54,357 nucleotides of DNA from contig RQSC01000005.1 of assembly GCA_013416795.1 (NCBI GenBank), positions 9,266 through 63,622 of the forward strand, read 5' to 3'. A program made the position numbers and the translations under genes. This DNA comes from Prasinococcaceae sp. CCMP 1430. Its lineage: Eukaryota; Prasinodermophyta; Palmophyllophyceae; Prasinococcales; Prasinococcaceae. The notes under the pieces were generated by a model. The model made no database searches, was not told the origin of the DNA, and saw only the letters and a program-made list of their open reading frames with translations. This document shows positions 3,511 to 43,560 of this stretch, one piece after another (positions within the stretch are counted from its first letter, which is position 1; each line of letters opens with the position of its first letter).

Positions 3511-4248
3511 CTAGGAGACGGAGTCAATGAGGCTCGCGCGCATGTCGGTGACGATGGCGCTCGGCTGCGCGTTGCGGAGCTTGAGCACCGACTCGATGAC
3601 GGAGAGCTCGGGCGACGTCGTGTCGGCGCCGCAGAACGCGCACCAGTCGTTGGCGACGAGGCCCGTGCCGACGACGTCCGAGCCGCGGTTGACCGTGCCC
3701 GCCACCAGCGGCACCTGCAGCAGGCTCGACAGCTCGTCGAGGTCCTCCACCGACGTGCGGGGGTGGCAGATGCCACCCTGATTTGTGAAGCGGATGTACG
3801 AGCCGACGACGACGTTGTCGGCAACCGTCTGGCGGAAGACCTCCACGCCCAGCACGTCCGCGAGGAGCTCCTCGGTGTCGCGGTCGAGGTCGGGGTGCAC
3901 CAGCGACACGTAGTCGTTGCACGCCACGCAGTTGCCCAGCGCGTTGAGCTTCTCCTCGACGCGCTGCACGACCACCGAGTCGGGCAGCGAGTTGCGCACG
4001 TGCAGCAGCTCCTGGTCGGTGGTGGTGTGCGGCATGAGCAGGCCGTTCTTGTTTCCCACGCACAGGCGCCCCGCCAGCCTGGTGCCAGCCACCGACACCT
4101 TGCACACCGGGATGTGCTCCGCGAGCTCCGACTCGTACGCCGCGTAGAAGTTCTCGCTGCCGCCGTGCGCGACCAGGCAGTACGCGTTCGTCAGCAGGCT
4201 AAACACGCCGATGTCGCTGTTGTTCTCGAACTGCAGGCGGGTCGCCAT
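3511..4248 (-). CDS. EIF6: Eukaryotic translation initiation factor 6
   Basis: eIF6 (yeast Tif6) binds the 60S subunit at the intersubunit face, blocks premature joining with 40S, and is needed for late nucleolar 60S maturation. The intronless 245-residue frame matches the usual family length and runs end to end. It starts [17 protein letters not shown] and contains [34 protein letters not shown], and [16 protein letters not shown] near the C terminus, the five-fold pseudosymmetric pentein pattern. The ATG at 4248 gives the conserved N terminus. The 3' end abuts the BOP1 fragment, another 60S-assembly factor, in convergent orientation. A 34-base homopolymer lies upstream of the start. Confidence 0.97.
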
Positions 4249-11724: not shown

Positions 11725-12792
11725 ATGGCAGCGNCCCGCGCCGAGGGCGGCGGCCCGGGCGGCCTGCTGGGCGGCCTCGGCCGCGCGCTGCTCGAGAAGA
11801 GCCAGGGCAGCGCCGACAGCGCCGCTGCCGTCAAGGGCGGGCTGCGCAAGACCGGCGCCCAGCTCTCCGTGATCGACAGCGTGCTGGGCGCGCTGGGCGT
11901 GGGCGGCGGCAGCGCCGTGGACGACGTGCTCGACGAGCTCGAGGAGGTGCTCATCATGAGCGACTTCGGGCCGCGCACGTCCGGCAAGCTCTGCGACGCG
12001 CTGCGCGAGGAGATCGAGGACGGCGCGCTGGACGCCACCGACGGCGTGGCCGTCAAGGCGCGGCTCAAGGGCATGATCGTCGACACGCTCGCCGCGGCCG
12101 AGGGCGACGCCGCGCTGCGCCTCGGCGAGCGGGCCGCCGGCGGCGGCGGCGGCGAGGGGGGGCCGGCCGTCGTGCTCATCTGCGGCGTCAACGGCGCCGG
12201 CAAGACGACCACCATCGGCAAGGTCGCCAACATGCTGCGGGGGGAGGGCGCCAGCGTCATGCTCGGGGCGGGCGACACCTTCCGCGCGGCGGCGGTCGAG
12301 CAGCTCGAGGAGTGGGCGGGTCGAACGGGGTGCTCCTTCCACCGCGCGGCGTCCAAGGAGGAGAGGCCCGCGGAGGTGCTCACCGGCGCCGTCCGCAAGG
12401 CCACCGAGGCCGGCGACGTCGACGTCGTCGTGTGCGACACGTCGGGCCGCCTGCACAACAACTACGAGCTCATGGACGAGCTGGAGGGCGTGCGCGACGC
12501 GCTGGCCGAGATGCGGGAGGGCGCCCCGGACGAGACGCTGCTCGTGCTCGACGGCACCACCGGACTGAACATGCTCACGCAGGCTCGCGAGTTCAACGAC
12601 ACCGTCGGCGTGAGCGGCCTCGTGCTCACCAAGCTGGACGGCACCGCGCGCGGCGGGTGCGTGGTGAGCGTGGTGGACGACCTGAAGATCCCCGTCAAGT
12701 TCATCGGCGTCGGCGAGAGGCTTGAGGACCTGCGGCCGTTCGACGCCGCGGCGTACGTCGACGCCCTCTTCCCGGACGACGCGGCGGAGTGA
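11725..12792 (+). CDS. FTSY: Chloroplast-type SRP receptor FtsY
   Basis: SRP-family GTPase that docks the cpSRP54-cargo complex at the thylakoid membrane and delivers light-harvesting and other membrane proteins. 355 residues in one exon. N-domain helices contain DDVLDELEEVLIMSDFGP. The G domain has G1 GVNGAGKTTTIGK, the insertion-box DTFRAAAVEQLE, G3 CDTSGRLHNNY, G4 TKLDGTARGG, and the closing GVGERLEDLRPFD. LDGTTGLNMLTQAREFN matches plant cpFtsY closely. The protein begins only about 15-20 residues before the NG core. The membrane-binding A domain of bacterial FtsY is therefore absent, as expected for cpFtsY, but the transit peptide is also not visible. An N at 11734 falls in codon 4, so the 5' end may be incomplete. 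It converges with the GPX gene. Confidence 0.95.
   Translation: MAAXRAEGGGPGGLLGGLGRALLEKSQGSADSAAAVKGGLRKTGAQLSVIDSVLGALGVGGGSAVDDVLDELEEVLIMSDFGPRTSGKLCDALREEIEDGALDATDGVAVKARLKGMIVDTLAAAEGDAALRLGERAAGGGGGEGGPAVVLICGVNGAGKTTTIGKVANMLRGEGASVMLGAGDTFRAAAVEQLEEWAGRTGCSFHRAASKEERPAEVLTGAVRKATEAGDVDVVVCDTSGRLHNNYELMDELEGVRDALAEMREGAPDETLLVLDGTTGLNMLTQAREFNDTVGVSGLVLTKLDGTARGGCVVSVVDDLKIPVKFIGVGERLEDLRPFDAAAYVDALFPDDAAE
11734..11734. other. Single ambiguous base (N) in FTSY codon 4
   Basis: Coincides with the expected position of a missing transit-peptide region. Confidence 0.5.
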
Positions 12793-13178
12793 GCGGAGCG
12801 GCCATCGCGCGCGAGCGGCGGCGCGGCGGAGGCGCCTGCCGCGGCGCGCGCGCGCCTGCCGCCGCGAGCAGCCCATGCAGCAGCCTAAATGACCCACCAT
12901 TTTATGTCTCATTTTACGCGGCGCCGCTGCCGTCGCTCGTTCGCCGGCTTCCGACTCGCCCGTGCTGCGCGCCGTCTCCCGAGCGTGCTCCGCGGCGCCA
13001 GAGGATCGTCCGCACCGCCGCGGTGGTGCTGTCGGCGCGCCGACACCGCCCGGGGGGCGGGTTCGTCGGCCGCGCGTCACGTGCATCCTCTGGTCACCTG
13101 CGGAGCTGCCAGGGGCGCGCAGCAGAGGGGCCGCAGTCGGGCCGGGGCGCTGGCGTCTGATGCGGTCCTGGAGGCCCT
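12793..13178. other. Convergent intergenic: FTSY and GPX 3' flanks
   Basis: 386 bases between two stop codons. The only structure I support is the SECIS-like element on the reverse strand (listed separately). An AT-richer patch at 12890-12915 may belong to the FTSY or GPX 3' end. Confidence 0.5.
13025..13088 (-). promoter_or_regulatory. Candidate SECIS element in the GPX 3' UTR
   Basis: About 90 nt past the GPX stop on the same strand. Read 5' to 3': helix I GG(A)TGC pairs with GCACC; then GTGAC (NTGAN) opposite CGAC (NGAN), giving the non-Watson-Crick quartet. Helix II is GCGCG(G)CCGAC pairing with GTCGGCGCGC, 10 bp with one bulged G. A conserved-position AA lies 13 nt after the TGA, at the 5' side of the apical bulge. 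A CCGCC/GGCGG ministem sits above it, making a form-2 SECIS. Pairing was done by eye. Confidence 0.7.
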
Positions 13179-14191
13179 CTACAGATCCTCTGCGAGGGCC
13201 GCCTCGATGTCGGCGCGCATGTCGTTTGGCTTCACTGCGGTGGCGTATCGCTTGATGACGCGCCCGTCCCTGCCCACCAGGAACTTCTCGAAGTTCCAGC
13301 CAATCTCAGCGCCCCCGGTCTGTTCCTTGAGGTACCTGTACACACCGCACGTGCCCTCGCCTTTGACGCTCACTTTGTGGAACATCGGGAACCTGACGCC
13401 CTTCTCGGCGGCGAACGCGGCGATCTCGGCGTCGGTGCCAGGCTCCTGTGCGCCGAAGTCGTTGCTGGGAAACGCCAGCACCGTGAATCCCCGCCCCTCG
13501 AGCTCGTCGAACAGCCGCGGCAGCTGCTCGTAATGGACGGCGGTCGCGCCTCAGTGGGTCGCCACGTTGACGACCACAGAGACCAGGCCGGCGAAGGACG
13601 CCAGCGCGATCTGCGCCGCGAGCCGCGGGGGTTGGGGGCGCTCGAGTCAGCACTCGCAAACGGCCGGCCAGCGCGCGTGCCCGCTCACACGCACTCAGGG
13701 GGGGATGCCACTCACGGTGGGGCCGCGGGCGCGGGCGGCCAGCGTGAGCTCGAAGCAAGGCGCTGTCGCACCTCGCTGCCGTCGATACCGGTGGCGGTGC
13801 CGAGGGCGTACAGTCCTTTGGCCTGCGGGATGTGCGCCTGCGGCGGCGGGCTGAGCTCGGGCTGGGCCACCTGCTCCGCCGCCTGCGCGAGCGCGCTGTC
13901 GGCTCGCAGTGCGCCGGCGTCGCTGGCGCGCGCGGCGCTCTTTGGCTTTGAAACGCGCACAGTGGCACTCTTGAGCTCCGCTTCCTCCCCAGCGAGCGCC
14001 ACCGGTGATCTGACAAAGCTAGGCAGCGAGAAGGCCGCCGCACCCGCCAGCGCGAGCATCGCCACCCAGCACAGCACTCGCGTCACACGCGACCGCCTGC
14101 GCCCGCCGCCCCCGCCGGGGCTCGCGGTGAGCGCGCCTGCGCCCGCGCGGCGATGTACATCACGCGTGAGCGGCAGCTCCATGGACGCCAT
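13179..14191 (-). CDS. GPX: Glutathione peroxidase, probable selenoprotein (in-frame TGA = Sec)
   Basis: Thiol peroxidase that reduces H2O2 or lipid hydroperoxides. Exon 1 is 14191-13772 and exon 2 is 13610-13179, with a 161-nt GT-AG intron and in-phase joining. Exon 2 reads SVVVNVATH, then TGA at 13553-13551, then GATAVHYEQL. Family members read NVAS(K)-C/U-GLT at this place, so the TGA sits exactly on the catalytic Cys/Sec (residue 160 of 283). The rest of the catalytic tetrad is present: Gln in FGAQEPG, and Trp-Asn in IGWNFEKFLV. A SECIS-like structure follows the stop. Residues 1-115 are an extension with a basic stretch and a hydrophobic segment, VLCWVAMLALAGAAAFSLP. This suggests a membrane anchor or targeting leader. 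The AAAF after it resembles complex-plastid cleavage motifs, though weakly. The start is the ATG at 14191; an N lies upstream at 14230. Confidence 0.88.
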
Positions 14192-14229
14192 GCGCGCGAG
14201 CGCGCGCGCCCCGCGCGCGCTCAGTGCCC

Positions 14230-14230
14230 N
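14230..14230. other. Single ambiguous base (N)
   Basis: Upstream of the GPX start, inside the probable promoter or 5' UTR. Confidence 0.5.
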
Positions 14231-14576
14231 GGGAGACGGGCACGGGCCGGGGGGCGCTCGCGGTTTGCGACGCCCCCCCCGCGCGCTTTTCTCATGGCTG
14301 CGGGAGCGGGCTGTTGAGCGCATGTCGCTCACGAGCAGCAGAGCGCAGCACCACCAGCCGTCAATATGAAGCCGGCGTCTCATCAAAATGCATCTGTTCG
14401 GAGCGCGCACGATTTCCGTAACTGCCAATGGGTTTTGGGACGTGGCCGCCCGCCCGCGCGCGCACGTGCGCATGCGCGCGCGGCTGAGCCGCACCATGCC
14501 GCTGCACCGGCCGCGTTGTGCCACACGGCACAGCGCGGGCGGGCAGCGGAGAACAGCGTGGGTGAGGGTCGGAGGG

Positions 14577-19781: not shown

Positions 19782-22700
19782 GCGTACCAGCAGCAGGATG
19801 AGCTGGGCGGCGGGGGCCTGTCGGGCGCGACCGCGGTGCTGCGCGACGCCTTCAAGAAGGACGAGGAGGACGAGTACATGGACGACATGAGCCCCTTCTG
19901 GGGCATCGAAAAGGGCGCCGTGCTCCAGGAGAGCCGCGTGTTCCACGACCCGCAGCTCGACGCTCGCCAGTGCGCGCAGGTCATCACCAAGCTGCTCTAC
20001 CTCATCAACCAAGGCGAGGCGCTCACCAAGACCGAGGCAACCGAGGTCTTCTTCGCGACCACCAAGCTCTTCCAGTCGAAGGACGTGTCGCTCAGGCGGA
20101 TGGTCTACCTCATGATCAAGGAGCTCTCCCCCAGCGCGGACGAGGTGAGAGCGCGCCGCGCCACCCCGCGCGTGCTCGCCGTGCAAACCTACGCCAACAG
20201 GCGGTCGCGCGGGCCAAAAAAAAAAAAAAAAAAGCCCCCGCGCGCGCGCACGACGCTCGGGGGAGTGGGAGGAGAAGGGGGGGGGGGATGGACGCGCCGC
20301 GTACCGACGCGTCGCGCGCCGGGGTGGTTGGGGGCGATCGACGTGCGGGCGGCGAGTCTGTGGGGGCAAAGAGGGGCCGCTCCCTCGCGGAGGGGGCGCG
20401 CGCGCGCGCGTGCGCTCGCGCGCGCGCGCGCGTTTCGATTTCGTATTTTCGCTCTTCCCCGCGAGTGGGGGGGGGCGCGCGCAACGCCAGACGCCATCTG
20501 ACGCGACGGCTCCGTGCCGCGCAGGTGATCATCGTGACGTCGTCCCTGATGAAGGACATGAACGGCAAGATCGACCTGTACCGTGCCAACGCCGTGCGCG
20601 TGCTGTGCAAGATCCTGGGCCAGGACAGCGGCGGAAGCTCGCTGCTCGTGCAGATCGAGCGCTACCTCAAGCAGGCCATCGTGGACAAGAACCCCATCGT
20701 GGCATCGAGCGCGCTGTGCAGCGGCCTGCACCTGCTCAAGTCCGGCCAGGCCGGCGTGGGCGACGTGGTCAAGCGCTGGAGCAACGAGATCCAAGAGGCC
20801 GTGCACTCGAAGTCGCCGCTCGTGCAGTTCCACGCGCTCGCGCTGCTGCACCAGATCCGCTCGAACGACCGCCTGGCCATCTCGAAGCTGGTGAGCTCCC
20901 TCACGCGCGGCACGGTGCGCTCGCCGCTCGCGCAGGTGCTGCTCGTGCGCTACACCGCGCAGGTGATAAGCGAGTCCACGCCGCCCTCCGACGGCTCCGA
21001 CCGCCCGTTCTTCGACTTCCTCGAGAGCTGCCTGCGCCACAAGGGCGAGATGGTCATCTTCGAGGCGGCGCGCGCGATCGTCAACATGCGCGACGTCACC
21101 TCGCGCGAGCTCGCGCCCGCGGTGACCGTGCTGCAGCTCTTCCTGAGCAGCTCCAAGCCCGTACTGCGCTTCGCGGCTGTGCGCACGCTCAACCGCATCG
21201 CCATGACGCACCCGCTCGCCGTCACCAACTGCAACATCGACATGGAGTCGCTCATCTCGGACCAGAACCGCTCCATCGCCACGCTCGCCATCACCACGCT
21301 GCTCAAGACGGGCAACGAGTCGAGCGTCGACAGGCTGCTCAAGCAGATCACCAACTTCATGAGCGACATCCAAGACGAGTTCAAGATCGTGGTCGTCGAG
21401 GCCGTGCGGGAATTGTGTCTGAAGTTCCCGCAAAAGCATCGCGTCCTGATGAACTTCCTGAGCAGCATCCTCCGCGAAGAGGGCGGCTTCGAGTACAAGA
21501 AGGCCATCGTCGACACGATCATCACCCTCATTGGCGAGATTCCCGAGACCAAGGAGGCCGGCCTCGGCCACCTGTGCGAGTTCATCGAGGACTGCGAGTT
21601 CACCTACCTGTCGACGCAGGTGCTGCACATCCTCGGCAACGAGGCGCCCAAGACCTCGGACCCGGCCCGCTACATCCGCTACATCTACAACCGCGTCATT
21701 CTGGAGAACGCCAACGTGCGCGCCTCGGCCGTGTCGGCGCTCGCCAAGTTCGGTGCGCTCGTCGAGGCCCTGCGCCCGCGCGTGGTGCTGCTGCTGCGCC
21801 GCTGCCTGTACGACAGCGACGACGAGGTGCGCGACCGCGCGACGCTCTACCTCAAGGCGCTGGGCGAGGGCGAGGAGGCCGCCGCAATGGGCGGGCTGCC
21901 GGTGCTGCTGGGCGAGCTTGACATCCCGCTGGCCAACTTCGAGGAGTCGCTGCGCGCGTACATAGACGCGGGCGCCACCGAGCAGGCCTTCGACACCAAC
22001 ACGGTCGACCGCACGTTGCCCGAGCCCTCGCCCCTCGAGCAGCTCAAGGCCGCCGAGCAGGGCGCGGGCGTGGGCGGCGTCAGTGGCGGCGCGTCCGTGG
22101 CCAAGAGCGGCGCGCAGTACCGCGAACAGCTGTCAGCGGTGCCAGAGCTCGCCGCGCTGGGCGAGCTGGTGAAGAGCAGCGAGCCGCAGCGGCTGACGGA
22201 GGAGGACACCGAGTACGTGGTGAGCGTCATCAAGCACATCTTTCCGGAGCACATCGTGTTCCAGTTCGATTGCAGCAACACGATCGCCGAGCAGCAGCTG
22301 TCGGAGGTGTCGGTGCTCATGGACACGGCCGATGCGGAGGACTTCGAGGAGGAGGCGCAGGTGGTGCTCAAGTCCATGCCCTACGGCTCATCAGCGCCCA
22401 CGTACGCGGTCATGGCGCGCGCGGAAGGCGCGCTCGCAATGGGCAAGTTCTATTGCACCTTGAGGTTTAACGTGAAGGAGGTGGACCCCGCGACGGGCGA
22501 AGCGGAGGAGGACGGCTTCGACGATGAGTACCAGCTGGAGGACGTGGAGGTGGCGGCCACCGACTACATAGTGCGGCAGCCGCTGTCGAACTTCAAGAGG
22601 AGCTGGGACGAGCTCGAGGAGGGGGAGGCCACCGACGACTACGGGCTGGGGCAGCGGGACTCGCTGCAGAGCGCGGTGGAGAGCGTGGTGAGCACGCTGG

Positions 22701-22906
22701 GGCTCGCGCCGTGCGAAGGCTCGGACGCCGTGCCGCCCAACGCGCGCTCGCACACGCTTCTGCTCGCTGGCACGGTGATGGACCTACAGGTGTGCGCGAG
22801 CGTGAAGTTGGGTATGGACGGTGCGCGCAACGTCGCCATGAAGCTTACCGTCAGGGCGGAGGACGAGGGGCTTTGTACGCTTGTGCACGAGATCGTCTCG
22901 GGCTGA
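19782..22906 (+). CDS. COPG: Coatomer subunit gamma (gamma-COP)
   Basis: Large subunit of the COPI coat for retrograde Golgi-to-ER and intra-Golgi vesicles. Exon A is 19782-20144, exon B is 20525-22906, with a 380-nt GT-AG intron joined in phase (ADE|VIIVTSSLMKDMNGK). The 914 visible residues are near full family length. The N-terminal adaptin-like solenoid begins WGIEKGAVLQESRVF, with KLLYLINQGEALTKTEATE and TKLFQSKDVSLRRMVYL. A linker follows at about residues 600-680. The C-terminal appendage carries FPEHIVFQFDCSNTIAEQ, the sandwich-plus-platform region, and ends EDEGLCTLVHEIVSG. Exon A begins right after an acceptor (CGCGCGCAG), so a short first exon with the ATG lies upstream and is not identified. 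The intron contains a 15-A tract and CG-alternating DNA. Confidence 0.96.
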
Positions 22907-25652: not shown

Positions 25653-26172
25653 TGCGGGGGAGGACTCCGAGGGGACGGAGCTTGGTCCCACTGGCGGGTG
25701 ACGCGGCGTCGCAGGAGGCGGAAGGTGTGTGTGAGCGCTTTGGGGCGGGAGGGCGAGCGCCGGCCCGGCGGCGCTGCGCCCGCCCCGCTTTTTTTCGTTT
25801 TCGTTTTGTTTGCGCCTCGGGACGGCCCGCGTGCGCCAGGCTGGCACGCACGACAGGGAGCGCGCAGCGCGAGCGAGCGCAGCGCCTCGCGTGAGAGTGG
25901 GACGCACCCTAGGCTGCGCTCAGCGAGGCTGACATCAGCGGCGCGCGCAGCAACGTGCCGGGTGAGGGCGGTCAGGTGGGCGCGCGCGCGCGTGCGCCCG
26001 CGGGTCGCGTCTACGAACAGCCCCCTGGCCCGCTCGAGTGCCGAAGTATTTGACGTGTCCACAGAGGCCGAGGCACTTTGTGAAGGAGGTGAGGCGGAGG
26101 ACATCCATCAGAGTGGCGAAAGACGCATTCGTCGCCGTCCCGTCGCGCTGCGCCGCGGACCGCGTCGACAGT

Positions 26173-29100
26173 ATGCCAACGCGGAGTGATGCCGCGCCAC
26201 CGCCTCCGCCGCAGTCGGTAGCGCGCCCCAGTGGCGAAGACGGCAGCAGCAATCCCAACCAGCTCTCCCAGGGAAACAGTGACCGCCCTAGTGGTGCCGT
26301 CGGTAGCCAAAAGGGAGCCGAGCTGGCAGATGGACGGTGGGCTGTAGCTGGCGTCACCGGGCGTCCTGCTGCTCCCGCCCCCGTGCTCAGCGCTGCCGAG
26401 TGCCAGGCGCTCACTGCCATGCGCAAGGGCGCCACGCTGTACAAGTACGGCTCACACGGTCGGCCGCACTTCCGGCTGTTCACGCTGAGTGCGGACGGAC
26501 GCGCGCTGCGATGGTACAGCGGCACGCGCAAGCGCGAGCGCAGCGTGGCGCTCGCGCAGGTGGAGGAGATTCGGACGGGGCAACAGACGCCCAAGTTCCA
26601 GAGGCACCCGCAGGCCAACACCGAGCACTTGAGCTTTTCGCTCGTCTACAGGAGCGGCGACCCCCCCCGCGATGGCCGCCCGTCCTCCGCTCGCGCGGCA
26701 GAGTACTCAACTCTCGATCTGGTGTGCAAGAGCGAAGACGAGCTTCGCACGTGGCTGCTCGGGCTGCACGCGCTGCTGCCGGGCGTGCTCATGCGTGACA
26801 TGACACGGGGCGGCGCTGGCGCTACAGCGCTGCCGCGGGCCATGCGGGCGAGCATGGCGGCGGCGAGGAGGGGGGCGGTGGGCGCGAACGGGGGTGAGAA
26901 TGTGGCTGCACTCAACCTCACCGCTGCCGCAGCAGTCTCGACCGCAGCAGGCACGGGATTGGTGGTAGGGAGGCTTGACATGCGCGCTGCGGCGGAGATG
27001 GCGCGTGCCTCGAGGCAGCGGCAACAGCAAAGCAGTAGTGGCAACGGAGGCACGGACAGTGCCCAGGGCTGGAACAGCGCCAGGCCACTGTTGGCGTCCG
27101 CACGTGACGTGGCGACGCCCGGCCGTGCGTCGGCAGCGCCCACGAGCGGCCGGCCGGAAGGAGCGGGCGCGGGATCTCCGCGCTCGACGGCCATGTTGTG
27201 CACCACCGCGGGCACGGTGCCGTTTGGCATGGGCATCTCGGCGCTGGCCGCGCGCGTCATGTCTGGAGGGAGCGGCGCAGGCACGCTGTACGTGTGGGGG
27301 GAAGGCATGGGAGTGGGATCGCTGACCCAGGTTGGCGTCGGTGCCGCCGAAGCTACGGGCGACGGGGACACTGGACTCTCGTGCGCGGCCTCGGCGGACA
27401 CAAACGCGGAAGATGCGCTTTCGCCTGCGCTCGTGTTGGGCGCATTCGACCTTGACGTGTACGCTATTTCGTGCGGCAACAAGCACATGGCCGCTCTGTC
27501 GAACAACGGAGCAGTGTACACGTGGGGCGCAGCTGGTCAGGGTGCGCTGGGCCACGGCCCCGAGGACGACCAACCCAAACCGAGGCAGCTGGCGTGGCTC
27601 GAGGGCGAGGCAGTGCCCACCGACGTGGCGTGCGGGGACTCGCACACCCTGCTGGCAACATCCAGCGGTGAGCTCTACGCATGGGGGGCGGGCGGCGACA
27701 GCGCTCTCCTCGGCCTCGGCTCCATATACGGGGGCGGATACGCCAATCAGTGGGTGCCGACGCGCGTGCTGTCCCTCGCGCCAGGCAGGCGCGTACGCAC
27801 GGTCACCTGCGGCCCTTACCACTCGGCGCTGCTCACGCGTGACAACGTGCTCTACACGTGGGGGGAAGGGCTCTTTGGCGCCTTGGGGCACGGTGATCAG
27901 GCGTCGGTCGGGGAACCCAGGGAGGTGGACGCGTTCAGCGGCAAGCCTGTTGTGGCGGTCGCGTGCGGGGTGTGGCACACGGCGGCCGTCGCGGCGGTGG
28001 AGGTCGTGGATCGCGCCGGACCTGATCGTGATCACCAGACTGTTGGCGGTGCCAAGACGTCAGAGAGTGACGCTGCTGATGCTTCCGAAGGAGCGAGCAA
28101 GGCGACGAGCGACGAAGGCGCCACCGCCACAAACGATCCAAAAGACTCTGCCCCAGTTCCTCCAGGACGGGGGGATGACCCCGGGGCGTCTGCAGCTGCT
28201 GTCGAACGAGGCGTCAGATCGGTGGCGACCGCTGACGCCAGGACGTCGGTGGCAGCTCGCGCGGTTAGCGCCGACGCGGGACGTAGCAGCACCAGCGTAG
28301 GTGCACGCGCCGTCGTCGGCGCGCTCTTCACCTGGGGCGACCCCGATAAGGGGCGGCTTGGCCACGGCGACAAGGAGACAGCCCTACTCCCACGGCAGGT
28401 GCGCTCAGTGGCGCGCGTCTCTGTCGCGGGCGTGGCGTGTGGCACGTGGCACACGGTGGCCCTCGGAGCCAACGGCAGGCTTTACACGTGCGGGCGAGAG
28501 GCCCACGGGCTCTTGGGCAGCGGCTCGCAGGCGAAGGCCAACGGCGCAGTCATGGGCGAGGTTACTACGCTGTCATCGGCAGGTGTGGTGATCGTGCAGG
28601 TTTCGTGCGGAGACTACCATACGGCCGCGCTGAGCTCCAAAGGCGAGGTGTACACCTGGGGTCTGGGCTCGCACGGCCGCCTTGGGCATGGCGGCGAGCG
28701 CTCCGAGAACACGCCCAGGGTGGTGGAGCGCCTACGTGGCATGCACGTGCGGCAAGTCAGCTGCGGCTCCAGCTACTCGGCGGCTATCTGTGCAGACGAC
28801 GGCAGCGGTGCCCTGCAGCGCTCTGCCGCGTCCAATTGGGAACTGCTCGAGCTGCTGCCCAAAGACGCTGACAAGCGCGTCGAGGTCGCGCGTGGCCAGC
28901 GGATACACGTCGGTCCAATGGCGGCCAAGGGAGCCAGACAGGCGCAGCCTGCTGGCGGCGGCATAACCAAGGCGCTCAAGCGCTCAACCAGCTCTATCCT
29001 GTCGAGCAGCGGTCGCGGAGGCACGCGCTCATCCCACTCTGCAGGCAGCGCGGGAGCTGGCCAGCCGCGCCCCGACAGCTCCTCCTTGTCGTCGAGTGAC

Positions 29101-29667
29101 GCAGGCAACAGCCCGTCCAACCTTTTCAGCCTGGGACGAGCCTCGGGCGAGGCCACATCCGCAGACCGAGGCGACCAAGGCGCCGAGGATCGCAGCAGCA
29201 GCGTCATGATGCTTCAGAGCATGCTCGAGAAAACGAAGACGCGCGTCGTCGAGCGCGAGGCCGAAATAGAGGACCTGAAGAGCGCGCTGGCAGACGCGCG
29301 TGAAAGCATGGCCGACACAGGTCGCGAGCTGGCGGAGGCCAAGGCGGAGGCGGCGAGGTATCGCGCACAAGCTGCGGCGCGCTCAAGGGCGCGTGCGCGC
29401 CCCGCACGAGGGGGCCTGGCAAGAGACAAGGCGCGCGCGCTCGGCCATGTGTCCTCTTCAACACGCCAACTTGAAGGCGACAGCGGAAGCGGCGGCGGCG
29501 ATGGCGCGCGCGGGGAGGCAGACAAAGATGCTTCTGTCGCCGCGGGTTCACCGCCGGGGCCATCAGCCCCAGAACATCCACAAACACGCCCCGAGCAGCC
29601 TCTCGTCGCAGTGCGGCTGCCGCCGCCGCCTGACGTTTTGGGCGACCCAGGCACTTCACTGAAGTGA
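26173..29667 (+). CDS. PH domain plus RCC1-repeat protein (PRAF-like, no FYVE)
   Basis: Resembles plant PRAF proteins, which bind phosphoinositides and act near endosomes or small GTPases; function here is inferred. Residues about 75-200 form a PH domain of the PRAF/PLC type (MRKGATLYKYGSHGRPHFR, then QQTPKFQRHP, then DLVCKSEDELRTWLLGLHA). Seven RCC1 blades follow, each with a TWGxxxxGxLGHG-like strand: LYVWGEG, VYTWGAAGQGALGHG, LYAWGAG, LYTWGEGLFGALGHG, LFTWGDPDKGRLGHG, LYTCGREAHGLLGSG, VYTWGLGSHGRLGHG. The fourth and fifth blades are separated by a ~110-residue low-complexity insert. Near the C terminus is a coiled coil (about 1010-1090), then a Pro-rich tail. The FYVE finger and BRX motif of plant PRAFs are not seen. 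The frame is open 45 codons upstream of the chosen ATG (26173), so the start is uncertain. Confidence 0.85.
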   Translation: MPTRSDAAPPPPPQSVARPSGEDGSSNPNQLSQGNSDRPSGAVGSQKGAELADGRWAVAGVTGRPAAPAPVLSAAECQALTAMRKGATLYKYGSHGRPHFRLFTLSADGRALRWYSGTRKRERSVALAQVEEIRTGQQTPKFQRHPQANTEHLSFSLVYRSGDPPRDGRPSSARAAEYSTLDLVCKSEDELRTWLLGLHALLPGVLMRDMTRGGAGATALPRAMRASMAAARRGAVGANGGENVAALNLTAAAAVSTAAGTGLVVGRLDMRAAAEMARASRQRQQQSSSGNGGTDSAQGWNSARPLLASARDVATPGRASAAPTSGRPEGAGAGSPRSTAMLCTTAGTVPFGMGISALAARVMSGGSGAGTLYVWGEGMGVGSLTQVGVGAAEATGDGDTGLSCAASADTNAEDALSPALVLGAFDLDVYAISCGNKHMAALSNNGAVYTWGAAGQGALGHGPEDDQPKPRQLAWLEGEAVPTDVACGDSHTLLATSSGELYAWGAGGDSALLGLGSIYGGGYANQWVPTRVLSLAPGRRVRTVTCGPYHSALLTRDNVLYTWGEGLFGALGHGDQASVGEPREVDAFSGKPVVAVACGVWHTAAVAAVEVVDRAGPDRDHQTVGGAKTSESDAADASEGASKATSDEGATATNDPKDSAPVPPGRGDDPGASAAAVERGVRSVATADARTSVAARAVSADAGRSSTSVGARAVVGALFTWGDPDKGRLGHGDKETALLPRQVRSVARVSVAGVACGTWHTVALGANGRLYTCGREAHGLLGSGSQAKANGAVMGEVTTLSSAGVVIVQVSCGDYHTAALSSKGEVYTWGLGSHGRLGHGGERSENTPRVVERLRGMHVRQVSCGSSYSAAICADDGSGALQRSAASNWELLELLPKDADKRVEVARGQRIHVGPMAAKGARQAQPAGGGITKALKRSTSSILSSSGRGGTRSSHSAGSAGAGQPRPDSSSLSSSDAGNSPSNLFSLGRASGEATSADRGDQGAEDRSSSVMMLQSMLEKTKTRVVEREAEIEDLKSALADARESMADTGRELAEAKAEAARYRAQAAARSRARARPARGGLARDKARALGHVSSSTRQLEGDSGSGGGDGARGEADKDASVAAGSPPGPSAPEHPQTRPEQPLVAVRLPPPPDVLGDPGTSLK

Positions 29668-38479: not shown

Positions 38480-41400
38480 ATGGCCGCGGGATGCGGCGAC
38501 GCCGACAATGCTAGCGGTGCGGGCAGCAATGGCGCGGGCGGTGGCGCGCCCGCGGGCGGCAGCGGCGGCGGCGGCAACCGCGCGGACGCGGACGACCGTG
38601 CGCGCCCGCGGGCGGCAGCGGCGGCGGAGGCAACCGCGCGGACGCGGACGACCGCGGGCTGCGGCACGTCACGTACACGCCCAAAAAGCTCAAAGAAGGC
38701 ACGCCGCACCCGGACCACGTAGTCGAGACGGAGGTCCTCGCCGCGGTGAGCCCGCCCGATCTGTATGGTTCAGATGGGAAGATGCTTGATGACGCGCAGC
38801 ACCACCTGGCAGACGTGGTGGCGAAGAAGACGATCTCGAACTTGCAGCTCGAGACTGTGTGCTACTCCAACCTGCGTTTCACCGGCAGGCTAGGCTACAA
38901 CAACGGCCCGCGCCCCGGCTTCTTTCTGGGCGACGGCGCCGGCGTTGGCAAGGGGCGCCAAATCGCCGCCACAGTCCTCGAGCACTGGAGGCGAGGCGGC
39001 CGCCGAACGCTGTGGATGAGGTTCGTGTCTCTTAGCGCGCCCTCCCGCCGGACACGCCATGCGGGTGCTGCGCGGCGACGCTGCGTGGTGTCGAACGATT
39101 CACCCGCCAGCGCATGCTGACGCCTCGGCGCGCGCACTTGCGCGCACGCACGTGCGCGGGCCCGCAGTGTGAGCAACGACCTGAAGTGGGATGCCCGCCG
39201 CGACCTGTCTGACCTGGACGTGGGGGCTGAGAAGGAGATCTCCATCCATCCGCGGGGGCCAACGCTCCCACAGGGCAAGCTCTCGGACAATGGGGTGGGA
39301 GACGGCGTCGTTTTCATGACCTTCAACCTGCTCATCGCTTCCAGCAAGGACGGCCGGACGCGCCTTGACCAGATCGTCGAGTGGCTGAACGAGGACCCGA
39401 CCGGAATGCCGCTCATCGTGCTTGACGAGTGCCACCGCGCGAAGAATCTGATGGATACGAGGAGCCTCGAGCGCCAGCTCAGGCAGGAGCAAGATGCGCG
39501 CGAAAGGGCCAATGACCAGGAAATACTCGACGAGGTGAACGCGAATGGCGTTGTCGCACCCCCCGCACGTGCGAAGAGGGGGCGAGGATTCCCAGACCCG
39601 GCGGCGACCAGTAGCAAGACAGCCATTGCGGTGATGCAGCTGCAGGAGCAGCTCCCCGATGCGAAGGTGCTCTACGCGTCCGCAACAGGGGCATCCGAAG
39701 CCAAGCAGCTCAGGTACATGACGCGGCTGGGGTGCTTTGACTACGACAGCACATCGGATTTCATCGACGCCATTGAGGGCAAGGGTATGAGCGCCATGGA
39801 GCTCTACGCCTGCGGCATGAAAGCCAGCGGTGCGTACCTGTGCCGCGCACTCTCGTACAACGGCGCCGAGTTCGATCTCCTCGAAGTGGACGTCGCTCCC
39901 GACGTGCGCCAGCAGTACGACGCTGCCAGTGAATTCATGATGCTCGTGCGTGCGATCAGCATGCACATCGGTGCCGAGTACAGCTTTGAGCAGGATGACG
40001 CAGGCGGAGAGCGCACATTCCCCAATGCCGGCAAGGCCAAAAAGAAGACGCAGATGGGCGGCGGCGTGTACTGGGGTGCGCACCAGCGCCTCTTCAGATC
40101 GCTCCTCATGTGCGCAAAGGTGCCGGCGCTCGCTGAGGTGGCAAAGAAGGGAGTTGCGGACGGGTCGCACGTCGTCATCGGGCTGCAGTCAACAGGCGAG
40201 GCCGGCATCGAACGCGCGGTTAAAGAAGCGATGGATGAGGGGAAGGAGCTCACTGAGATGGTCAGCGCGCCGCTGGCCATCATCTCTCAGCTCATCAAGG
40301 CCCACTTCCCGACGGCGGTGACGGCAGCAGATGTCGGCAACCCGAAGCTGGACACTCTGCTTCACCAGGTGCATCAGGCGGTGTGCTCGTGGGAGAAGAT
40401 GGTCAAGAGGCGCGGTGGGGCGGACGGGACGGACGGAGACGCCAACAGCGACGACGAGGTCGAGATCGCGCAGGTGAAGGACGTGCACGCCATCGAGGCC
40501 GAGAAGCTAGAGAAAGCGAGGCGCACCGGGCAGCTCATTGATCTGGACGACGATGTCTCTCCTGAGCAGCTCGCTGCTGCTGCCGAGGAGCGAAGAAGGG
40601 AGGCCGACGACGAGCGAGAGCGGCAGCGCGCCGCGGCCGCTGCGGCTGATGCTGCCGCTGCGAAGCAGAAAGCCGACGAAGAGGCCGACGAGGAATTGCC
40701 GCCATGGAAGATCGCCATGATGGAGCTCAGGAGGGAGGCGAACAGCGGCGCCGCGGAGCGGAGCGTGCGCCAGGCGAATGCCGCCGCGACGCAGGCAGTG
40801 ACCAACGTGTCCAACGTGAGCGATAGCGACCAGAGCGCCGGCGATGGCAGCGACGATGGGGTTCGCGGCGAGTCCTCTGCGTTGGCAGGCTCGCCAACGG
40901 GTAGCCCCGGGCCTGACGTGAAGCCACTGGTCGGCAGCAAGCGTCAGCGCGAGGCAGCGTCAGGTTCTGCAGATCCGCGATCGCTAAACTCGGGCTCGGA
41001 CTCTGACTCTGACATTGATCTGATCGACGACCCATTCGCAAAAGGCGCGGCCATTCCCAAGTCTGCCAAGAAGGACGCCAAGCCGGATGTCGGGCGCAGG
41101 TCCAGTACGCCGGGCAAGGCCAAGGCCAAGTCGAAGAAGGCGCGCCGCACGTCGGACAGCAGCCATGGTACCCGTGATGGCGATGATGACTCGGAGTCGG
41201 ACGACGACGAAGAGGATGAGGACGCGTCTCTGGCAAGCCTCGGACTCGTGCGTGACGAGCGCCTCGTGGAGATGAAGGCCCTGCTGCTCCGCGGCGTGGA
41301 GGCCCTGCAGCTTCCGCCCAATCCCCTCGATGACCTCATCGACAGGCTCGGGGGCGCCGAGGACGTTGCGGAAATGACCGGGCGCAAGCAGCGCATGGTC

Positions 41401-43560
41401 CGTACCGAGAATGGGACCTTCGCTGCAGTGCCGCGCTGCCCCAAGGGCCAGGAAGGTGGCCTTAAGATGCTCAACCTGCACGAAAGGGAGAAGTTCATGC
41501 GGGGTGAGAAGGTCGTCGCCATCATCTCCGAGGCCGCGTCCAGCGGGATCAGCCTGCACGCTGACCGGCGCTTCGAGAGCTCTTCGAGGCGCCGCCTTCA
41601 CCTCACTCTCGAACTTCCATGGTCAGCGCAGCAGGCGATCCAGCAGTTCGGCAGGAGCCATCGCAGCAATCAGACGAGTGCGCCCGTGTACCGCCTCGTG
41701 GTCACGCCGTGCGGCGGCGAGAGACGATTTGCCTCGAGCGCAGCCTCGCGCCTGCAGAAGATGGGCGCAATGCTCAAGGGAGACAGACGCGCCATGGGCG
41801 CCGGCGTCGAGCTCCAGCACTTCGATGTCGACAACGACTACGGCGCCGCCGCTGTCGAGTCTGTCCTTGACGACGTGTGTCGCGGAACCATGGAGCGAAC
41901 CGGCGTCACTGCTCCAGAGCCACCGAAGGACACCGCACACTCGCCGGCCGGCACGACCTTCTTCGAATTCGCGCGGCGGGCGCTCATGTCGTGCGAAATT
42001 GTCAAGGGCGCCATGTCCCAGTCCATGCTGACAGGGCAGACACTCTACACGCCGTCGGACAATATGCTGAACAACAAGGGAAGAGGTGCGCTTGCGCGTC
42101 GGTGTAGATGCGTGCGATTGGCGAAGGTGCGCTTGAGGGCGCGAACGCATCGGCGTTCGCCGTGCGGAGTATGCCGCTGACCGCAGCACCATGCATGTGC
42201 GTCCGTGGGCCCGTGGTTCTCTCGTCCCGTACTATTCGATGCATCACTGTCTCTCGCAGCTGTGGCGATCTTCCTGAATCGCCTCCTCGGCCTACCCATC
42301 GCCGAACAGGACGCACTCTACTCCTTCTTCTCGTCTCAGTTCGATGCTGTTGTGGAGCGCCGACGCGCCGACGGCACGCTCGCCCGCGGCGTGCAAACCA
42401 TCGAGGGGAGATCAGTTACTGTGAACAAGCCCTTCCCGCTCCTTCTGCACACCAACAACTTCGGAGGTGCCCAAACGTATCTGACCAAGGTGGAATACGA
42501 CCGTGGCATGACCTTCGAGAGCGCCAAGCGCCTGCTCGAGATGCACAACGCGGCCGCGGAGGGGCGGGGGCTGCCGACCGACATGAATGGATTTTGGCTG
42601 ACCCACTCTCGATGGGGCGTTGAGAAGAAGCCAAAAGTTCTGCTCGCTCTCGAGATACCCGCCACATACATCGGGCAGCGCAACAGGAAGTATCGGCGTT
42701 CGACTCCCGCCATGGTTGCCTCCGCGGACGATCACAGCGTCAACATTCTGGACGATCGGCACCTCAGAAACACGCGCGCGGCCAGCGAGGCGAGTCTCGC
42801 CAAAGCGGAGGAGCTGTGGAACTACTGGTTCGAGGAATCTGGTACGGAGTACAAGAGGAGTTTCCCGAATTGGCTGGGGAGGAATAAGGCGCTGGGCATG
42901 CACCCGCCGTCGCCGCTGCGCTTGCAAGAGGAGTATCTCATCACGGGGGCCGTGCTGCCGCTCTTCAGGCGCATCGAGCAGACCATTTTGAGTGTCGCAG
43001 ACTACTCGCGTGACGACGACGATCTCGCGGTCGCCCCGCGAGCTTTGAGGTCCACGCGCCGTGGAGACGACGATATGGATTGGATTGTTGCGGACGACGA
43101 TGGGAACATGCACGGCTACGGGCAGGTGGCTCAGACGCAGCCGCAGGACAGAGACGATGCGGATGGCTCGAGAAATAAAGAGCGGAGGAACGGTTTGAAG
43201 CTCAAGCTTGCGGTCACGACCGACACCCGCCAGCGAATCAACGGCATCTTCATCCCAACGAAGGCGCTACAGCAGATCGCAGCTCTGGTTGATGACCTCG
43301 GCGGTCTCCCGGGCGTAGCCGAGGAGGCGCTCGAGGAGGTGCTCGGGCCAGGGAAGAACCTCTGGTCGCTGATCGGGATCAAGTCTCCCGCGCAGTACGC
43401 CAAGGAACAGGCGGAGGAGCGCGCGAGGAAAGAGGCCGAGCGGCTCAAGAGGGAAGCGGCCCTGAAGGCGCAGGATGCGGCTGCCGCCGCCGCGTATGCC
43501 GCCGCCGCGCATGCCGTGACCATTGCCAAGGACGAGCACGACGAGGACATTGACATGTGA
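38480..43560 (+). CDS. SBNO: Strawberry notch (SBNO) helicase-like protein
   Basis: Nuclear SF2-type helicase-like regulator of chromatin and transcription. Exons: about 38480-39020, 39168-42085 and 42260-43560; introns of 147 and 174 nt join in phase (LWM-S-VSNDLKWDA, and G|CT before VAIFLNRLLG). Exon 1 has YTPKKLKEGTPHPDHVVET and the Walker A loop FFLGDGAGVGKGRQIA. Exon 2 has the Walker B DECH box LIVLDECHRAKN, a ~230-residue acidic/Lys linker, and the family C-terminal domain with IQQFGRSHRSNQ (motif VI). Exon 3 has LHTNNFGGAQTYLTKVEYD. Exon 1 is problematic: a 56-bp tandem duplication shifts the frame between the ATG (38480) and the conserved part. A downstream alternative start is the in-frame GTG at 38746, but that would lose conserved residues. 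Confidence 0.93.
38551..38662. repeat. 56-bp tandem duplication (2 copies) in SBNO exon 1
   Basis: Copies 38551-38606 and 38607-38662 share the first 48 bases with one mismatch (GGCGGCGGCGGCAACC against GGCGGCGGAGGCAACC). 56 is not a multiple of three. The first copy codes GGSGGGGNRADADD in the frame of the ATG at 38480, and the second codes the same peptide in the frame that continues into SBNO. Confidence 0.92.

Follow-up and report, generated by a model that had tools for sequence, protein, structure and literature searches.

The 54,357-nucleotide stretch of DNA from the green alga Prasinococcaceae sp. CCMP 1430 that was analysed (hereafter the window) contains a glutathione peroxidase (GPX) gene with an in-frame TGA at the position of the catalytic cysteine. 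The question raised by this locus is whether the TGA encodes selenocysteine (Sec), ends translation or results from an error. The initial annotation had favoured Sec and had pointed to a SECIS element downstream. The gene and its flanks were examined together with the genome (24,521,569 bases in 145 contigs), of which the window is C89:9266–63622. The features of the locus, in window coordinates, are as follows.

13772–14191, minus strand: exon 1, from the proposed ATG at 14191; it covers an extension at the N-terminus that includes a hydrophobic stretch, and leads into the first of the conserved residues of the GPX (..IDGSE)
13611–13771, minus strand: predicted intron of 161 nt, GT-AG (GTGCGA..CGCAG); the alignment with a GPX relative spans the junction
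13179–13610, minus strand: exon 2, GPX catalytic domain; PF00255 at 92.0 bits, 120 matches listed at 49–56% identity
13551–13553, minus strand: in-frame TGA, predicted Sec at the peroxidatic position; Cys in 120 of the 120 relatives listed
13446–13448, minus strand: catalytic Gln codon (coordinates computed from the start of exon 2); Gln in 120 of the 120 listed
13410–13412, minus strand: Ala codon replacing the resolving Cys; Cys in 119 of the 120 relatives listed
13293–13298, minus strand: catalytic Trp-Asn codons; each residue in 120 of the 120 relatives listed
13179–13181, minus strand: true stop TAG, from the reading of the frame
13031–13080, minus strand: candidate form-2 SECIS with a GTGAC/CGAC core, AA at 13063–13062 and ministem CCGCCC/GGGCGG, from our own scan and fold
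12998–13093, minus strand: possible closing helix I round the SECIS core, CCAGAGGAU at 13093–13085 pairing with AUCCUCUGG at 13006–12998, in both centroid and minimum free energy (MFE) structures

The product of 283 residues, encoded by two exons on the minus strand, reproduces that of the initial annotation. Removal of the 161-nt intron is required, as the unspliced reading (1013 nt) is out of frame. Once it is removed, the frame is continuous on either side of the TGA down to the TAG at 13181–13179, as had been claimed. The alignment spanning the splice junction has 82/151 identities with a relative, and the score against the Pfam GSHPx family (PF00255) increases from 92.0 bits with exon 2 alone to 96.6 bits with the spliced product (cut-off 27, with C written for U). 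Apart from the TAG at its end, the exon 2 frame has a single stop among its 144 codons, the TGA at codon 20, and the GC3 of this exon is 0.875. With the TGA read as a residue, exon 2 retrieved 5856 proteins at E ≤ 0.001 in a database search. The column of the TGA is Cys throughout the 120 relatives listed, and the Gln, Trp and Asn of the catalytic tetrad, equally invariant in this list, are all found in the window gene, so that this part of the initial annotation holds. No Pfam match was found for residues 1–131 of the product, homology starting around residue 132. The ATG at 14191 is the presumed start codon, and the N-terminal extension gives a faint hint that the protein may be targeted to an organelle or a membrane.

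The neighbours of the GPX gene are ordinary eukaryotic genes. Four of the ten window open reading frames that were tested matched Pfam families: coatomer gamma (19970–22906, plus strand), an RCC1-repeat/PH protein (26038–29667, plus strand), a Strawberry-notch-type helicase (39169–42180, plus strand) and a WD40 protein (48146–45705, minus strand). The GC content of the window in 2-kb steps is 0.59–0.73. The window contains 218 N, one of which is near the GPX gene, at 14230.

A stem with NTGAN opposite NGAN had been described about 90 nt past the stop. It was found as GTGAC/CGAC, 98 nt past the TAG. The scan and the fold give a helix of 11 pairs, consisting of the 10 Watson-Crick pairs already noted and a terminal G.U, with one bulged G. 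The apical ministem of 6 bp is confirmed, and the AA beyond the core is present, 12 nt after TGAN instead of the 13 nt first counted. The geometry was called by the definition of form-2 SECIS elements. The 50-nt stem (−30.6 kcal/mol) folds better than 199/200 shuffles (z −2.6), and the 117-nt region round it also folds better than 199/200 shuffles (z −4.1). The MFE structure of this region re-pairs the inner stem; the centroid keeps it within the 9-bp closing helix. When the 479-nt 3' flank was dinucleotide-shuffled, 17 of 5000 shuffles matched the SECIS shape and 4 of 5000 did so as strongly. Over the whole 54-kb window, the scan of both strands returned three matches, the other two having 9 pairs each.

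Profiles gave a different picture. No SECIS was found by an Rfam scan of 12700–14400 with E up to 10, the stem is not among the three matches of the genome-wide Rfam SECIS scan (E up to 10), and it was not listed by the covariance models R1 and R2, built in this analysis, with ordinary filters (E up to 10). With the filters off, the retrained model R2 returned the stem as the best match in a 279-nt flank (7.9 bits, E 0.03), the opposite strand at the same place scoring nearly as much (7.4 bits). The core of the stem reads GTGA, versus ATGA in the five other elements of the genome, with which it shares its architecture. The candidate SECIS thus rests on geometry and position, with marginal support from profiles. 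The identifiable SECIS of the initial annotation is upheld as a form-2 geometry; recognition by covariance models in ordinary scans is the part that failed.

The window gene is not alone in the genome. PF00255 has nine matches, in at least seven GPX loci. A TGA occupies the catalytic site in six of the seven that were found: the window gene on C89 (VATHU) and those on C76 (VASAU), C75 (VASRU), C135 (VASLU), and C3 and C68 (both VAGLU). The GPX on C11 is of the Cys type (VASYC) with a resolving Cys (EFCTR). In the C135 product, Pro-Leu comes after Sec (VASLUPLQ), whereas the other TGA-containing GPXs have Gly there. In the C68 gene (L002, C68:107623–110928), a tandem duplication of about 28 codons, which includes the Sec codon, repeats LDLGAAKGKVALVENVAGLUGTTVKDY; it is either real or an assembly error.

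SECIS elements were found downstream of four other TGA-GPX genes and of one DsbA-like gene. The Rfam SECIS_1 model, run on the whole genome with E up to 10, has only three matches (20.6, 18.7 and 18.6 bits), all far under the gathering score of 35 bits. Two of them, C3:1116–1178 and C68:110017–110079, are downstream of the respective TGA-GPX genes. The third, C82:811984–812050, is downstream of a gene with a DsbA-like frame (PF01323, 51.1 bits) that has its TGA within the redox motif CTQUPHGYIG and a terminal TAG some 160 nt upstream of the SECIS stem. In coordinates of L042, the corresponding stretch of C82, this feature is:

4952, minus strand: TGA codon of the DsbA-like gene, with its stop at 4205 and the stem at 4042–3994

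As read from these features, the DsbA-like gene is a predicted second selenoprotein family in the genome. The GPX on C75 has a clear SECIS element as well. With a covariance model trained on the elements of C3, C68 and C75, two further elements outside the training set were found, that of C82 (18.1 bits, E 0.046) and one on C76 (17.0 bits, E 0.083) starting about 80 nt past the stop of the C76 GPX; the next matches scored 15.5 bits (partial, L003) and 12.3 bits. In the alignment of the five elements, 93.3% of the helix cells pair, versus 29–56% when slid, in an alignment that was fitted to the model and hence favours structure. Four helix pairs change on both sides among the five elements. The first MAFFT alignments of the SECIS cores were discarded, as the C82 and window rows were misaligned, and alignments A2 and A5 served for the models instead. 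For the C135 GPX (L040, C135:40000–46000), neither the scan nor the covariance models gave a convincing SECIS within about 5 kb.

The presence of a selenoprotein implies a machinery for Sec synthesis and insertion, as the initial annotation had pointed out, and this expectation was borne out in part. Selenocysteine synthase (SecS) is present (PF05889, 377 bits; TIGR03531, 460.5 bits for a cut-off of 224.85), with a DKNFMVPVGGA stretch that we take to be the active-site lysine region. Its nearest named relatives are from green algae, namely Sanguina (63% identity), Coccomyxa (64%), Micractinium (63%) and Chlorella (55–61%); the single 100% match listed is a cluster of 17 members. A P-loop kinase fragment on C54 has the eukaryotic PSTK family TIGR03575 as its best NCBIfam match (57.5 bits, cut-off 382.35), AAA_33 and KTI12 being ranked first in Pfam. 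It is a probable PSTK.

The tRNA-Sec, SBP2 and eEFSec that had been expected were not found in the six-frame, intron-blind searches. The genome scan for tRNA-Sec with RF01852 yielded 11 matches, none above the cut-off, and the eight loci inspected are other tRNA genes. Of two search patterns for this tRNA, one returned nothing and the other five matches (on C41, C98 and C136) that were not taken as a nuclear tRNA-Sec. These contigs have organelle-like features. C136 (476,838 bases; L147, L009–L012, L016) has a GC content of 0.33–0.49 in the stretches examined, a tufA-like EF-Tu, frames interpreted as rps4 and ftsI, and numerous tRNA genes; it is apparently an unusually large plastid contig or a misassembly. 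C41 and C98 (L013–L015, L148) carry an identical His-Cys-Ser-Ala-Thr tRNA cluster, adjoining frames read as mitochondrial nad9, sdhC, rps4 and tatC, which may be a nuclear copy of mitochondrial DNA or a sign that the contigs are chimaeric.

Searching the genome for eEFSec with a selB-type profile gave 15 matches in 14 genes, none of them eEFSec: EF-Tu (two), and genes read as IF2 (two), LepA, eIF2-gamma, HBS1-like, TypA-like (two), EF-G, EF-2, Snu114-like, Ria1-like and Bms1/Tsr1-like. An approximate eEFSec consensus used as query matched the same kinds of genes, and the eEFSec domain family PF21208 had no match in the genome, nor in any of 14 controls. The selD profile had no genome match for selenophosphate synthetase, and none of the five genome matches of an L7Ae profile was read as SBP2-like. 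These gaps are not read as absence, because the searches, made in six frames, were blind to introns, parts of the genome may be lacking from the assembly and PF21208 also missed the 14 controls. The matches to the selB profile do not include EF-1A or EFL either, a hint that the assembly or the search has gaps.

A further indication comes from the second cysteine of the catalytic cycle. GPXs of plants and fungi work with a peroxidatic and a resolving Cys, and those of bacteria have both, according to a GPX survey (PMC8614756), in which it is also stated that Sec made the resolving Cys dispensable and that this Cys was subsequently lost in animals. The resolving Cys is kept in 119 of the 120 Cys relatives listed; the window gene has Ala. 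The association was examined in bacteria, searching GTDB with nine truncated database proteins of 97–109 residues, which begin downstream of the Sec site and have no resolving Cys. The sample consists of the best 80 of 585 confirmed relatives; having been found with a profile (the nine fragments without resolving Cys and the window gene) and with patterns favouring FPCNQ, it is enriched for that state, and it has no NDFG row. TGA is at the catalytic site in 13 of these best 80 loci (L067–L069, L072, L073, L077, L079, L080, L083–L085, L092 and L102), from Acidimicrobiales, Gammaproteobacteria and one Deltaproteobacterium. All 13 have another residue in place of the resolving Cys (Ala in 10, Val in 2, Ile in 1). 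This Cys is present in 65 of the 67 bacterial Cys-GPXs, in the column itself in 58 and shifted by one residue in the alignment in 7. The Fisher test gives p = 3e-13, uncorrected for kinship and sampling; the independent pairs are only 4–5, too few for a test. The two exceptions, L070 and L071, are placed by the tree among the Sec-GPXs, L070 next to one of them (97/95), and are possible reversions from Sec to Cys. Eight GPX loci from contigs of the virus collection IMG/VR (L059–L066) were also read, and all eight have Cys with a resolving Cys. GPX-like matches occur in 14 of 50,697 phage records.

That the TGA goes together with a lost resolving Cys argues for a window TGA that has long stood for Sec, and against a misread Cys codon. 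The replacement of this Cys by Ala also suggests, for the window enzyme, a 1-Sec cycle in which glutathione or another outside thiol acts directly as the reductant.

Other explanations of the TGA have to be weighed against these observations. With 218 N in the window, including the one close to the gene at 14230, and with Cys in 120 of the 120 relatives listed, the true codon might be TGC or TGT, misread by sequencing or assembly, in an ordinary Cys-GPX. Such an error is highly improbable, as it would leave aside the TGA at the equivalent site of five more GPX loci in the genome, the SECIS-shaped stem downstream and the loss of a resolving Cys that Cys enzymes mostly have (119/120 listed; 65/67). 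It is also very unlikely that translation halts at the TGA of a decaying gene. The branch of the window gene is long, at 1.32 changes per column, as could be found for a pseudogene, but there is no further premature stop in the 144 codons of exon 2, GC3 is 0.875, the catalytic residues are intact and five other GPX loci share the TGA. A variant nuclear code, in which TGA would mean Cys or another residue throughout the genome, could be suspected from the ten stops that were read (eight TAA, one TAG, one TGA). It is extremely improbable, since the gene read as LepA ends in TGA, six translation-factor frames are open without internal TGA, the in-frame TGAs within conserved domains sit at redox-active positions, and a profile-supported SECIS is downstream of 5 of the 7 such TGA genes.

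A last alternative retains Sec and concerns the element that directs its insertion, which could be a SECIS other than the 13080–13031 stem. The stem is not listed by any profile in ordinary scans, and, as the C135 gene shows, a SECIS can escape detection in this genome. The stem geometry, its distance from the stop and the rate of 17/5000 shuffles nevertheless make another element unlikely.

Sec at the window TGA is supported by the six TGA-GPX loci, the SECIS elements of the genome, SecS, the probable PSTK and the missing resolving Cys. With high confidence, the window gene encodes a eukaryotic Sec-containing GPX of the green alga. In line with what is established for selenoproteins, a protein binding the SECIS in the 3' flank would recruit eEFSec with Sec-tRNA-Sec, and the ribosome would read UGA as Sec and terminate at UAG. 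The selenolate in the Sec/Gln/Trp/Asn site would then reduce hydroperoxides. The oxidised selenium is probably reduced by an outside thiol, for example glutathione (1-Sec cycle), instead of the internal disulfide and thioredoxin cycle of the Cys relatives.

The descent of the window gene is less clear. It has an NDFG motif, the Asp of which is found in 90 of the 120 relatives listed, bacterial ones among them. It is 33–46% identical to the five paralogues compared (C68 left out), up to 58% identical to database proteins in the aligned parts, and up to 64% identical to the fragments of 97–109 residues, over 72% of the post-Sec query. Sec-type relatives appear in the database in truncated form. 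A tree was calculated with 98 rows and 144 columns, leaving out C3 and C75, which are partial segments, and without C68. In the free tree, the window gene is placed, on its long branch of 1.32 changes per column, within the bacterial Cys-GPXs with NDFG (12 rows, 100/96 support), 10 of its 11 neighbours being NDFG. The 13 bacterial Sec-GPXs are grouped apart from it, with C135 and two Cys rows (99/94). Constrained trees were compared by the AU test. The test does not reject a tree in which the window gene joins the bacterial Sec rows (p-AU 0.316), and the log-likelihood is 7.2 above that of the free tree when the gene is placed with C76, C135 and C11 (p-AU 0.603), and 2.6 above when placed with C76 alone (p-AU 0.535). 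The bacterial Sec-GPX L067 scores 364 against the window gene, compared to 371 for the best Cys relative.

The free tree could be read as a bacterial NDFG Cys-GPX that entered the algal nucleus, switched from Cys to Sec there, acquired an intron and a SECIS and gave up its resolving Cys, without connection to the other Sec-GPXs of the alga. This reading is weakened because the paralogue-constrained trees are slightly likelier and L067 scores as high as the Cys relatives, and it is rather doubtful. If true, it would be a worked example of a whole catalytic cycle switched from Cys to Sec after transfer between domains.

Whatever its descent, the window gene resembles several known systems. In vertebrate GPX4, the catalytic site is Sec/Gln/Trp/Asn and there is no resolving Cys, as in the window gene, which differs by its N-terminal extension. 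PDB chains named GPX4 match the part after Sec with E values of 6e-23 to 4e-20; their scores are 75–85 bits, versus 129 for the best database protein with the identical query. The bacterial Sec-GPXs (13 of the best 80 GTDB loci) have TGA at the equivalent position and, in 13 of 13, no resolving Cys, as in the window gene; L067 has an NQFG-type motif where the window gene has NDFG. The bacterial Cys-GPXs with NDFG, named ones being from Planctomycetota, Bacteroidota and Sorangium among others, are the top-scoring relatives and the neighbours in the free tree, with Cys and a resolving Cys where the window gene has Sec and Ala. With the Sec-GPXs of algae, as described in PMC7539508, the window gene has in common Sec at the peroxidatic position and a 3' SECIS; it differs by the NDFG motif, common in bacterial Cys relatives, and the likeness is one of family description and not of sequences from other species. 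Sec-GPXs are among the most widely distributed algal selenoproteins according to that source. Selenoproteins have been surveyed across Archaeplastida (PMC6627142), and many Sec-containing proteins are reported from the Prasinoderma genome in a paper whose main text does not contain the word glutathione (PMC7455551). The window gene is very probably a new case of a gene type that algae are known to have.

Genes of this type are split or truncated by standard annotation. The combination of TGA with a lost resolving Cys provides a simple sequence test that helps to tell true Sec-GPXs from misread Cys-GPXs, and it predicts a switch of reductant. The window gene, its paralogues in the alga and the bacterial TGA loci are at odds with the proposal, made in the GPX survey (PMC8614756), that GPX acquired Sec in the animal lineage, the GPXs of other kingdoms having Cys. 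For the alga itself, where the TGA is present in six of the seven GPX loci found, the window gene adds a well-supported selenoprotein.
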